Assembly (NCBI RefSeq): GCF_013870525.1
Contig: NZ_JACBXD010000039.1
Location: forward strand, 1 to 64,000
Length of the DNA: 64,000 bases
Direction: 5' to 3'
DNA from: Amycolatopsis pittospori
Lineage (GTDB): Bacteria > Actinomycetota > Actinomycetes > Mycobacteriales > Pseudonocardiaceae
Shown here: positions 45,849 to 49,334 of the stretch, piece after piece
Layout: each line of letters begins with the position of its first letter
How positions within the stretch are numbered: position 1 is the stretch's first letter
The notes under the pieces: model-generated
Seen by the model: the letters and a program-made list of their open reading frames with translations, nothing else
Database searches by the model: none
What the model was told of the DNA's origin: nothing
Translations under genes and position numbers: made by a program

Positions 45849-47054
45849 TCAGGTGTACCAGGTGGGTTCCGGGAGTTCGTTCAGGAGCGCGTAGGCGCCG
45901 ACCTCGCGGCGCTTGTACGCGACGGGGTCGTGGAGCGAGTGCGTCCGCAGATTGCGCCAGAAGCGGTCCAGGCCGTACTTCGTCGCGCTAGCGCGGGCGC
46001 CGGTCAGCTCGAAGACCTTCGTGCCGATTTCGAGTCCGGTGTCGATCGCGCGCTGCTTGGCGGCGGCGATGAGGACCGCGACGTCGCCGCGTGCCTCAGG
46101 CGTGAGTTCTTCTCGCGGCGCGTGCAGTACGGCCGAGATCGCGGCGCCCGCCTTGTCCGCCAGTGCTTCGGCGGCCCACAGTTTCGCCTGCAGATCGCCG
46201 TAGCTGTCGAGGATGTACCACTCCTCGCCCGCCGACGCCTTGTTGTCGCCGCCGTACGGCCAGGCGCGGGTGTGCTCGCGCGTGTACTCCAGCGCGGTTT
46301 CCAGCGCGCCCTGGGCGATACCGAGGTAGAAGTTGGTGAACACCAGCTGGATCGCCGGGACGTTGAGCGTGTTGTAGGTCAGCGGGTGGAACTTCTTGTC
46401 GACGTAGCCGGCGGCACTCGCCCACGGGACGCGGACGTCGGTGATGGTCACGCTGCCCGATTCGGTGAGCCGTTGGCCGATGTTGTCCCAGTCGTCGTGG
46501 AAGACGATACCGTCCTGTTCGGACGGAACGATCGCGAAGATGTGGTCCTCGGTGCCTTCGAGGATCCCTTCGAGCACGGTCAGGTCGGAGACCTTGCTGC
46601 CGGTGGAGAACGACTTGTGTCCGTTGTAGACGATCTCGTCGCCGTCCTCGGTGATCTTCAGATCGGAGTCGCGGGGATTGACCGCGCCACCGAAGAAGAA
46701 GTTGTTCTTCGTGTACAGCTCTTCGACGGCGGCGACCTGATCGTCGGTCGCGACCAGTCGTGCGGCCCAGGCCCAGAGATAGTGGTAGCCGAGCAACTGC
46801 CCGATCGAGCCGTCACCGCGGGCGACCTCGCGGATCACCTGATAGGCGGTCTCCCAGCTCTGCCCGCCACCACCGTGCTCGACCGGGCCGAGCAGGGTCA
46901 CCAGGCCGGAATCCTTCAACCGCTGGACTTCCGTGTACGGCGTTTCGTTCTTCCGGTCGCGTTCCGCCGCGTCCACCGCGAGTTCGGCGGCGACGTCCTT
47001 CGCGGTGGCCAGCCATTCCGTGGCGGACCGTACCGGGTTCTCGGTCGTGGTCAT
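45849..47054 (-). CDS. Acyl-CoA-dehydrogenase-fold flavin monooxygenase (SfnB/DszC-like, sulfur acquisition)
   Basis: 401 residues from ATG 47054; the frame upstream runs through a leader region and is not used. Family features are the flavin-site stretch YNGHKSFSTGSKVSDLTVL and the C-terminal THSLHDPVAYKRREVGAYALLN typical of DszC/SfnB-type monooxygenases, which desulfurise organic sulfur compounds with reduced flavin. A cysteine-containing leader peptide gene 83 bases upstream, of a type attached to sulfur-assimilation genes, strongly supports the sulfur role. Divergent MarR gene beyond. No flavin reductase is adjacent. Confidence 0.85.
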   Translation of the reverse strand: MTTTENPVRSATEWLATAKDVAAELAVDAAERDRKNETPYTEVQRLKDSGLVTLLGPVEHGGGGQSWETAYQVIREVARGDGSIGQLLGYHYLWAWAARLVATDDQVAAVEELYTKNNFFFGGAVNPRDSDLKITEDGDEIVYNGHKSFSTGSKVSDLTVLEGILEGTEDHIFAIVPSEQDGIVFHDDWDNIGQRLTESGSVTITDVRVPWASAAGYVDKKFHPLTYNTLNVPAIQLVFTNFYLGIAQGALETALEYTREHTRAWPYGGDNKASAGEEWYILDSYGDLQAKLWAAEALADKAGAAISAVLHAPREELTPEARGDVAVLIAAAKQRAIDTGLEIGTKVFELTGARASATKYGLDRFWRNLRTHSLHDPVAYKRREVGAYALLNELPEPTWYT

Positions 47055-47060
47055 GCTGAA

Positions 47061-47120
47061 TTCCGTTCTGTACGAGGGTGAACGGGTATTTCGGGCAGGG
47101 CGAAGCGCCCGGGATACCCG
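47061..47120 (-). promoter_or_regulatory. Structured leader between the Cys leader peptide and the monooxygenase
   Basis: On the minus-strand RNA, CGGGTAT pairs with ATACCCG to enclose a GGGCG-CTT-CGCCC hairpin. The structures lie between the leader-peptide stop and the monooxygenase start and are candidates for an attenuator or ribosome-site mask released by ribosome stalling. The exact switch is inferred. Confidence 0.45.
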
Positions 47121-47137
47121 GGAAGGCGAAGGCTGTT

Positions 47138-47212
47138 TCAGGCAGTACAGAAGCAACCCGCGACGCGGACCAGGTCCACGTGGCGGCGACGGGTCAAGCG
47201 GATGCCGTCCAT
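47138..47212 (-). CDS. Leader peptide with C-terminal Cys codons (sulfur-responsive type)
   Basis: 24 codons, too short for usual ORF calling. The peptide contains LTRRRHVDLVRVAG, the conserved core of actinobacterial sulfur-operon leader peptides, followed by GCFCTA with two cysteines just before the stop. A TTGACA -35 (47243-47248) and TCTACT -10 (47220-47225), 17 bases apart, end 7 bases before ATG 47212, so the transcript is probably leaderless. Ribosome stalling at cysteine codons when cysteine is scarce would then control the monooxygenase downstream, as reported for mycobacterial leaderless cysteine leaders. Confidence 0.82.
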   Translation of the reverse strand: MDGIRLTRRRHVDLVRVAGCFCTA

Positions 47213-47219
47213 GCGTCCG

Positions 47220-47248
47220 AGTAGAGCAGTGGGACTACAGGGTGTCAA
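47220..47248 (-). promoter_or_regulatory. Promoter TTGACA-17-TCTACT of the leader-peptide operon
   Basis: A perfect -35 hexamer at 47243-47248 and a 4/6 -10 hexamer at 47220-47225 on the minus strand, spaced 17 bases. Predicted transcription start coincides with the leader ATG. Confidence 0.7.
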
Positions 47249-47286
47249 CGAACGTCCGCGCTCTGAGACCGGGGTAATCTCCGGGA

Positions 47287-47778
47287 GTGCCGGACCACGT
47301 TGATCACATTCTGAGCCAGTGGGCGGAAGCCCGCCCCGACCTGGACGTCTCCCCGATGGGGGTGATCGGGCGGCTGAGCAGGCTCGCCCGGGTTTTGGAC
47401 GGCGAACTGCGCAAGACGTTCGCCCGGCACGACCTCGACCGGTCCTCCTTCGACGTGCTCGCCACCCTGCGCCGGGCCGGCACGCTCACCCCGGCCGACC
47501 TGATGCACTCCGCGATGATCACCTCCGGCGCCGTCACCCAGCGCCTGGACAGGCTTGAGGAACGCGGCCTGGTGGTCCGCGCGCCGGACGAGACGAACGG
47601 CCGCCGGGTGCTCGTCGACCTCACCGAAAAGGGTCTCGAGCTCATCGACCGGGCGCTGCCCGACCACGTCGAGACCGAGCACCGCCTGCTGAGCGCGATC
47701 AGCGTGGGAGAACGCGACGAACTCGCCGCCCTGCTGCGGAATCTGTTGAGTTCGTTGGGAGACGTCGCCGAAGAGTGA
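47287..47778 (+). CDS. MarR family transcriptional regulator
   Basis: 163 residues from GTG 47287. The winged helix is clear (LDRSSFDVLATLRRAGTLTPADLMHSAMITSGAVTQRLDRLEERGLVVR, with the wing DETNGRRVLVDLTEKG). It is divergent from the leader-peptide operon, with only 74 bases between the two starts, so it may regulate both. It could also act on the twin palindromes before the MFS gene 230 bases beyond its stop. Confidence 0.9.
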   Translation: MPDHVDHILSQWAEARPDLDVSPMGVIGRLSRLARVLDGELRKTFARHDLDRSSFDVLATLRRAGTLTPADLMHSAMITSGAVTQRLDRLEERGLVVRAPDETNGRRVLVDLTEKGLELIDRALPDHVETEHRLLSAISVGERDELAALLRNLLSSLGDVAEE

Positions 47779-47807: not shown

Positions 47808-47847
47808 TCATTGAGGGGTAAGTCAAAGGTGGCGTGGATGGCGGGGT

Positions 47848-47900
47848 GTTGCGAAAGCCACTTTCGCAACGTTGAAGGTTGCGAAAGTGGCTTTCGCAAC
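47848..47900. repeat. Twin 23-bp palindromes, second location
   Basis: Units at 47848-47870 and 47878-47900, with the same GTTGCGAAAG/CTTTCGCAAC arms, the same opposite orientation and the same 7-base gap as 5109-5161. The stretch 47779-48158 has no gene; it holds this repeat, the partial arm at 47788 and the promoter at 48004-48042. Confidence 0.85.
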
Positions 47901-48003
47901 ACTCGAGGGGCAGGTAGGTGAAGGGACGGGCGGGCCCGTTCACCCGGGGTGACAGTGGGCGCGAGTGCGCCGCCCAGGTCGCCGCCGCTCCTCCGCTCAT
48001 CAT

Positions 48004-48042
48004 TTGACTTAGCGCTAAGACGTCCGATACCTTAGCGCTAAG
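48004..48042 (+). promoter_or_regulatory. Promoter with two CTTAGCGCTAAG operators before the MFS gene
   Basis: Perfect 12-base palindromes lie at 48008-48019 and 48031-48042, centres 23 bases apart (about two helical turns). A TTGACT (48004-48009) and TACCTT (48028-48033) with an 18-base spacer overlap them, so a repressor bound here would block RNA polymerase. Confidence 0.75.
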
Positions 48043-48158: not shown

Positions 48159-49334
48159 ATGGTCACTCGAACCGAAAAAGCGCCTTCGACCTTGAGGGGC
48201 TGGGCGGGCGTGGCGGCGATCACCGCCAGCCTGTTCGTCTTCCTCACCACCGAACTGATGCCGGTCGGCCTGCTCACGCCGGTGAGTTCCAGTCTGGGCA
48301 TCTCCGTCGGCGTCGCCGGGCTGATGGTCACCCTGTACGGCGTCTCGGCCGGGCTGGGCGTCCCGTTCATCGTCGCGTGGACCCGGCGGATCAACCGGCG
48401 CGTCCTGCTTTCGACGATGCTCGGGATCCTGGCCGTGGGCAACCTGATCACCGCGCTCGCGCCCAGTTATCCGCTGGTGCTGGCGACCCGGCTCGTCATG
48501 GGGTTCGCCAACGGCGCCTTCTGGGCGATCGGCGTCGGGATGGCGATGCGCCTCGTCCCGGAACGGCACGCGAACCGGGCGGCCGCGGTGGTGATGTCCG
48601 GGATCTCGATCGCCACCGTGCTGGGTATGCCGCTGGGCACCGTCCTCGAAAGCCTGACGAGCTGGCAGACCACGTTCCTGATCTGGAGCGGCCTCAGCGT
48701 CCTCGTCTTCCTCGCCGTCGTCGCCCTGGTCCCGTCGCTGCCGTCACAGAACGCGGTCTCGGTCCGGGAGGTCTTCGGTCTGCCGCGCGAGAACGTGCGC
48801 CTGCGGTCGGTGCTGGTCACCGTGGTCTTGTTCGTGCTCGGTCACTTCGGGGTCTACACCTTCATCCGTCCTTTCCTGGAAGGGAATTCTTCCGCGTCGT
48901 CCGGCTTCATCACGGTATGCCTGATCGTCTTCGGCATCGGGGGAGCGGCCGGGAACTTCGTCGCCGGGTACTTCGTGACCAAGAACGTGCGGACGAGTTT
49001 CCTCGTGGGCGCCACCTCCCTCGTGGCGTCGTTGTTGCTGCTGCTCGCGATCGGCCACGGTCAGGCGGGCGCGATGATCGCGCTGGCGCTCTGGGGTGTT
49101 TCCTACGGCGTCGTGCAACTGAGTCAGCTCACGATGACGCAGAACGCCGCACCGGAGACCTTCGAGGCCGCCATGTCGCTGAACACGCTGGCGTACAACA
49201 CCTCCATCGCTCTCGGAGCGTTGTTCGCCGGCCTCTTCGCCGACAACGCCGGCATCACCAGTGTCGTGTGGTTCGGCGTGGTGCTGACGGCCGCTTCCTT
49301 GCTGTTCACCGCCGGCACCCGCCGAACCGCTTAG
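48159..49334 (+). CDS. MFS transporter (DHA1-type exporter)
   Basis: 391 residues, 12 predicted membrane segments. Early features FLTTELMPVGLLTPVSSSLGISVGVAGLMVTLYGVSAGLGVPF are those of the arabinose/drug efflux branch of DHA1 transporters. Expression is probably repressed through the twin palindromes upstream. Converges with the ABC genes with 4 bases between. The substrate is unknown; a drug or sugar efflux role is typical. Confidence 0.9.
   Translation: MVTRTEKAPSTLRGWAGVAAITASLFVFLTTELMPVGLLTPVSSSLGISVGVAGLMVTLYGVSAGLGVPFIVAWTRRINRRVLLSTMLGILAVGNLITALAPSYPLVLATRLVMGFANGAFWAIGVGMAMRLVPERHANRAAAVVMSGISIATVLGMPLGTVLESLTSWQTTFLIWSGLSVLVFLAVVALVPSLPSQNAVSVREVFGLPRENVRLRSVLVTVVLFVLGHFGVYTFIRPFLEGNSSASSGFITVCLIVFGIGGAAGNFVAGYFVTKNVRTSFLVGATSLVASLLLLLAIGHGQAGAMIALALWGVSYGVVQLSQLTMTQNAAPETFEAAMSLNTLAYNTSIALGALFAGLFADNAGITSVVWFGVVLTAASLLFTAGTRRTA

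Follow-up and report, generated by a model that had tools for sequence, protein, structure and literature searches.

A gene for a putative sulfur-scavenging monooxygenase of Amycolatopsis pittospori is preceded by a short open reading frame (ORF) that ends in cysteine codons. Could such an ORF control the gene behind it in response to cysteine, and how much of the ORF would be needed for this? We considered these questions for the window, i.e. the whole stretch of 64,000 nt analyzed (contig NZ_JACBXD010000039.1, positions 1 to 64,000), along with 80 genomes of the genus and the best 80 of 212 homologous stretches in named genomes, the nearest of which came from Amycolatopsis.

The leader, its promoter and the gene it precedes

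An initial annotation of the locus had proposed a 24-codon ORF with two cysteines before its stop, situated 83 bases upstream of the monooxygenase gene and laid out as a leaderless one behind a TTGACA-17-TCTACT promoter. We found this anatomy in place (Table 1): Cys occupies codons 20 and 22, the gap to the monooxygenase ATG at 47054 is 83 nt, and the spacing from the promoter boxes to the leader ATG is what a leaderless-type transcript would have. The strict promoter scan of the locus accepted no promoter, as the TCTACT box has no A at position 2 of the −10 box. The block GTTGACA-N17-T[CG]TACTCGG, with a start 6–7 nt past TACT, recurs in relatives. The terminator scan returned 0 sites, that is, no G+C-rich stem with a U-tract after it.

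Table 1. Features of the leader–monooxygenase locus (positions in the window)
Feature	Position	Strand	Basis
Dyad-like element, degenerate copy TCTCAGAGCGCGGACG, just 5′ of −35; candidate operator or activator site	47253..47268	−	resembles element of sfnG promoters of the genus
−35 box TTGACA	47243..47248	−	sequence; kept in relatives
−10-like box TCTACT, 17-nt spacer, 7 nt 5′ of leader ATG	47220..47225	−	sequence; TACTCGG conserved in relatives
Leader ORF, 24 codons plus stop, MDGIRLTRRRHVDLVRVAGCFCTA then stop	47138..47212	−	sequence; NF042934 profile match
Segment TTCTGTAC, complementary to 47066-47073	47145..47152	−	MFE and centroid pairing; partly in consensus
Conserved block 1 CTGTACTGCCTGA, last Cys codon to stop	47138..47150	−	12 of 13 columns invariant in 13 relatives with truncated leaders
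Hairpin H, arms 47120-47107 and 47096-47083	47083..47120	−	both-side changes at 3 of 14 pairs
Segment GTACAGAA, partner of leader Cys-codon segment, directly 5′ of weak ribosome-binding site CGGAA	47066..47073	−	sequence; fold
MsuC/DszC/SfnB-type monooxygenase, 401 aa, no Cys, no internal Met	45849..47054	−	sequence similarity

The dyad-like element calls for caution. In Amycolatopsis sfnG promoters its form TCCCAC-N3-GTGGACG sits 4–5 bp 5′ of a −35-like TTG; it was also seen, with wider spacing, in Actinokineospora, and sfnG of the A. pittospori genome itself (L170) is among its loci. The pattern gave 32 matches in 31 of the 80 genus genomes and was not enriched over the reversed control, which matched more often; position is its sole support, 21 of 30 dyad loci lying directly 5′ of an sfnG-type gene (two of the 32 matches came without a locus). 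Perfect dyads numbered 7 in 89 regions versus 0 in 1780 simulated ones, with the consensus drawn partly from those same sequences.

The peptide matched the NCBIfam model NF042934, ‘putative leader peptide’, with 39.9 bits (cut-off 27, E 2.1e-10), which agrees with the earlier description of it as a Cys leader and places it, as a new member, among the leaderless cysteine leaders already published for actinobacteria. Traits of this family are present: the Cys codons stand at the end of the ORF, and the downstream gene is, by similarity, of the sulfur-metabolism type. The leader scored below the narrower Ms5788A equivalog NF042933 (31.9 bits, cut-off 45) and falls outside the contiguous-polycysteine class, its Cys codons being non-adjacent (Cys-Phe-Cys). 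Scanning the 8.4-Mb A. pittospori genome with NF042934 gave three matches above cut-off, the leader considered here at 38 bits; the other two precede a NIR_SIR-domain reductase and a pair of genes for a DUF4395 protein and a rhodanese-domain protein, and none of the genes behind these two reached an NCBIfam equivalog cut-off. Canonical leaders above cut-off occur somewhere in all 80 genus genomes. A text search of the literature had no match to the exact string LTRRRHVDL; a literature search that covered few subscription journals recognised nothing on such a leader before an SfnG/MsuC operon and nothing on truncated cysteine leaders. Rfam returned only two sub-threshold matches, to animal RNA families.

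The downstream protein had been called SfnB/DszC-like, and full-length similarity bears this out. Its best solved relative by sequence was methanesulfinate monooxygenase MsuC (PDB 6u76, 261.5 bits), followed by DszC chain 3x0x (247.6 bits), both matched over the full length; the scores against NCBIfam DszC (NF043015, 277.1 bits) and SfnB (TIGR04022, 260.5 bits) lie below the equivalog cut-offs of 850 and 430.9, respectively. The enzyme appears to be of the sulfur-scavenging type, with an organosulfur compound as its presumed substrate. It has neither Cys nor internal Met, ∼8.9 such residues being expected from the Cys+Met rate of the 43 ORF-called window genes (P 1.3e-4 for a single gene; it ranks lowest among the 43). 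Cys is absent from 78 of the 80 homologs, and 72 of them lack internal Met as well. Low Cys/Met content has been described in PMC8557817 for SfnG and other sulfur-acquisition enzymes of Rhodococcus. A Cys/Met-free enzyme is in line with the published idea of sulfur sparing and speaks for expression in sulfur starvation independently of any RNA argument. Low divergence at codon positions 1 and 2 (0.24 changes per site in 13 relatives) indicates that the gene is constrained; despite this constraint damaged copies exist, one with an in-frame TAG (G014) and one frameshifted near its start (G066). A monooxygenase start at TTG 47156 was ruled out: conservation (MTTTE) begins at the ATG, and the preceding sequence varies with indels.

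Outside the window the sulfur connection recurs. Among 77 loci with ≥1.7 kb upstream (from the best 80 of the 212 homologous stretches), a motif search found an SfnG-like gene upstream of the homolog in 51, and at least 30 of these 51 had a canonical Cys leader just before the SfnG-like gene; the number is a lower bound, since near-matches at L072, L073 and L082 were missed by the leader pattern. Leader-headed operons of this kind were seen in Saccharopolyspora, Actinokineospora, Streptomyces, Pseudonocardia and others, and the opposite strand of the same 77 loci carried no canonical leader. By pattern, 21 of the 51 SfnG-like loci had no leader, including the Amycolatopsis operon loci (L009–L019). 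SfnG-like proteins from five genera, five of the 51, were tested against TIGR04021 and all passed (593 to 622 bits, cut-off 382.95). The A. pittospori genome has its own SfnG on a different contig (611.8 bits), with no leader seen upstream of it.

At some of the Amycolatopsis operon loci the SfnG-like gene itself may start leaderless. At L074, L075 and L082 leader-like peptides stand both before the SfnG-like gene and between the SfnG-like and MsuC-like genes.

According to PMC13352529, the pathway runs dimethyl sulfone – SfnG – methanesulfinate – MsuC – methanesulfonate, and Acinetobacter MsuC shows low turnover, its mutant having no significant growth defect; an SfnG–SfnB neighbourhood is mentioned for Gordonia in PMC9861168. 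The initial annotation had tied the monooxygenase to sulfur through the leader. With the MsuC/DszC-type similarity and the recurrence of leaders at SfnG/MsuC-type operons elsewhere, sequence comparison strongly suggests a sulfur link of the locus. PMC8557817 describes Rhodococcus IGTS8 as encoding no homologs of known global sulfur regulators; some of the control that is missing there could be exerted by leaders like this one, which precede SfnG/MsuC-type operons in several genera of actinobacteria.

Leaders of 24, 8 and 5 codons in Amycolatopsis

A monooxygenase ortholog (E up to 1e-80) was present in 37 of the 80 genus genomes, and the promoter pattern, with up to two mismatches, matched in 18 of the 80. 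Among these matches a full leader was seen only in the window and in G058. Conservation of the peptide in relatives had been named as a check on the initial annotation, and here its reading did not hold: in 13 of 13 genomes of the sister clade the RRRHVD core is absent from the locus, while promoter, Cys codon, stop and hairpin are kept. What stands of that reading is the anatomy, the leader family and the sulfur-type enzyme; what does not is the expectation that the closest relatives would share the peptide core at this locus. The RRRH core expression likewise had no match near the gene in the five closest named relatives (L004–L008).

The leader of the sister clade has lost its core and shrunk to 8 or 5 codons, still with a Cys codon; this observation is new. 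The 13 truncated peptides are MLCTA (five), MRCTA, MRCPA and MEGTLCPA (two each), MDDIRCTA (one) and EGTLCTA (one); the last, from G013, has AGG instead of ATG as start codon and mismatches in hairpin H. Other variants are MDGSRFTRCTA in G066, MAGGRCRTA in G069 and a leader without Cys in G041. Protein-search loci, which exist for 30 of 40 places (G066 was read through L099), added G047, which keeps the full leader (MDGIQLTRRRHVDFVRGAGSRCTA), and G006, with neither start (GAG) nor Cys. By locus, the natural variants L118, L131 and L114 correspond to G014, G006 and G013. Truncated leaders were also found in the named genomes of A. keratiniphila, A. decaplanina, Amycolatopsis sp. WAC 01376, A. 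azurea and A. oliviviridis, some of which may duplicate genus genomes counted above. The canonical leaders listed for the 13 sister-clade genomes lie at other loci. The 5-codon pattern matched in nine of the 80 genus genomes, once in each and only at this locus, with no control matches.

The gene tree placed the window with the 13 sister genomes at 100% ultrafast bootstrap and the 13 by themselves at 99%; G058 joined them at 63% only. G047 belongs to another clade, along with G066, G006, G069 and G041 (99%); as it carries a full leader, the core must have been lost at least once in each clade. Two pairs of sisters, each with 100% support, combine a 5-codon and an 8-codon leader (G076 with G049, G063 with G052, respectively), so that the later shortening step, or else recombination upstream of the gene, took place more than once.

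What remained of the leader appears to be constrained. Block 1 (CTGTnCGGCCTGA) accumulated 0.31 changes per site, compared with 2.44 for the spacer and 1.46 for 167 four-fold sites (P 4.3e-4 with four-fold sites resampled; 13 relatives with truncated leaders), and in the same relatives 20 of 22 columns of the ribosome-binding-site block TTCGCCCTCGCACAGAACGGAA are invariant; the 13 genomes share ancestry, so these counts are not independent. The distance from the start to the aligned Cys TGT is 63, 15 or 6 nt, in frame in all 14 rows (window plus 13); distances computed separately are in frame by construction and make no independent test of frame. Between the stop and hairpin H the window has 15 nt, and each sister genome 25, 26, 27, 29 or 31 nt. 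The leader Cys codon is TGT in 13 of 13 genomes; the ratio of TGT to TGC is 24:124 in window genes, 41:24 in 41 leaders of other genera and 14:16 in 30 leaders at further loci, most of them from Amycolatopsis.

One could speculate that a leader of 5 or 8 codons (M-x-Cys-Thr/Pro-Ala-stop and longer forms) still works as a minimal cysteine sensor: the conserved peptide core would be dispensable as a whole, and a leaderless mRNA would need only one Cys codon, which could come as early as codon 3. We hold this reading tentatively, as a real possibility short of a probable one. If true, a single early Cys codon can regulate the gene behind it. The 24 to 8 to 5 codon series amounts to a natural deletion experiment on leader-peptide requirements.

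RNA folding and the possible form of control

Nested stems, noted after the leader in the initial annotation, are present in the predicted fold, which has an MFE of −60.2 kcal/mol (z −1.79) and was equalled or surpassed in stability by 9 of 200 shuffles. At hairpin H each of the both-side changes was confined to one sequence. In the window TTCTGTAC and GTACAGAA form a perfect 8-bp pairing, found in both MFE and centroid structures, and RNAalifold, given no structure, paired leader CTGT.CGG with CG.ACAG before the ribosome-binding site around hairpin H. This second helix had both-side changes at none of its eight pairs, i.e. no covariation. Its duplex energy was marginal in the window (6.4% of 500 shuffles as good) and unremarkable in the other 16 transcripts, where 17% to 99.8% of shuffles did as well; G047, in spite of its full leader, has almost no such pairing (0.01 expected pairs). 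As a control for covariation, the structure slid by −2 scored 0.050 versus 0.035 in place, with 56.2% versus 94.1% of cells paired. The modelled openness of the ribosome-binding site in the window was 0.40 for free RNA; a ribosome placed on the last Cys codon raised it to 0.57, and one placed on the stop to 0.51. Over 17 transcripts, a ribosome at the last Cys made it higher in 10, lower in 5 and equal in 2 compared with none; the comparison of last Cys with stop gave 8 higher, 8 lower and 1 equal.

We consider the element to be, more likely than not, a leaderless cysteine-responsive translation attenuator. Transcription would start at or beside the leader AUG, where a 70S ribosome would initiate directly. 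With plentiful Cys-tRNA the leader would be completed fast; its Cys-codon segment UUCUGUAC would then pair with GUACAGAA by the ribosome-binding site of the monooxygenase, the intervening spacer being folded into hairpin H, and monooxygenase translation would stay low. If Cys-tRNA ran short, a ribosome held up at the Cys codons would cover the segment and leave the ribosome-binding site free, so that the MsuC/DszC-type enzyme, itself free of Cys and internal Met, would be made and would release sulfur from organosulfur compounds.

Sequence comparison supports the anatomy, the family, the operon association elsewhere, the Cys/Met-free enzyme, the changes in hairpin H and the conservation of Cys codon and stop. 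In favor of this explanation we counted the NF042934 match, the association with SfnG operons, the enzyme composition, the genes behind the other two above-cut-off leaders of the genome, the leader–RBS pairing, the rise in modelled openness in the window from free RNA to a ribosome at the last Cys, and the mycobacterial precedent (see below); counted against it were the weak duplex statistics, the missing both-side changes, the mixed openness of the ribosome-binding site, the near-zero pairing in G047, the Amycolatopsis operon loci without leader, and G006 and G041, which have lost the leader Cys yet keep the monooxygenase gene.

Attenuation might instead act on transcription, with the leader ribosome determining which structure, hairpin H or a competing fold, halts RNA polymerase ahead of the monooxygenase, perhaps with the aid of Rho. 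The conservation of H with its both-side changes at three pairs would suit this, as would Streptomyces lividans, for which PMC8079986 describes leaders followed by hairpins with no clear terminator. The scan, however, found no terminator-like site, and the strong conservation lies at the ribosome-binding site; moreover, given the distance at which H begins after the stop and an assumed 13-nt downstream footprint, a ribosome at Cys or stop would miss H. We regard this form as unlikely. We find equally unlikely the view that the leader is decaying at the locus, with regulation carried by the promoter and the short forms of the relatives as remnants: it would account for the loss of the core in both clades of the tree, for the AGG start of G013, for G006 and G041, and for the damaged monooxygenase genes of G066 and G014, but it sits poorly with the slow change of block 1, with the full form kept in the window, G058 and G047, and with the 14-sequence alignment, in which the reading frame from start to Cys TGT is kept throughout while spacer lengths differ by 1, 2 or 4 nt.

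Very unlikely, in our estimate, is control of the monooxygenase by the divergent MarR-family regulator (47287-47778), with the leader incidental. The MarR gene begins 38 bp from the −35 box, and the MarR N-terminal motif stands beside the promoter in six of the 13 sister genomes; the other seven, however, keep promoter and leader without this motif, and the leader matches the NF042934 family.

Between the MarR and MFS genes we also saw a long inverted repeat (47845-47903, TTGCGAAAGTGGCTTTCGCAAC and its complement); other long palindromes adjoin the monooxygenase gene in relatives L115, L119 and L130. The palindrome CTTAGCGCTAAG, in two copies at 48008-48042 upstream of the MFS gene (48159-49334), is possibly an operator.

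Relation to known leader systems

Compared with MsuC, DszC and SfnB, the monooxygenase scores below both equivalog cut-offs and has no Cys and no internal Met; its gene stands alone here and behind SfnG in many relatives. Like the trp/ilv-type transcription attenuators, the locus has a leader peptide with sensor codons and then stems; unlike them, it has no terminator-like site that we could find.

The closest comparison is with the leaderless polycysteine short ORFs of mycobacteria, reportedly described by Canestrari et al. in 2020. These ORFs provide the precedent for translation attenuation (PMC9031893, PMC13236596 and PMC9094748); in the mycobacterial model, as outlined in PMC13236596, a stalled ribosome opens the downstream ribosome-binding site. 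The A. pittospori leader differs from them in having two Cys codons parted by Phe rather than contiguous ones and a single MsuC/DszC-type gene as its target; versions without the whole core exist in its sister clade, and its response to cysteine is a predicted one. What it shares with the mycobacterial ORFs is the short leaderless-type ORF, Cys codons near the stop and a sulfur gene downstream.
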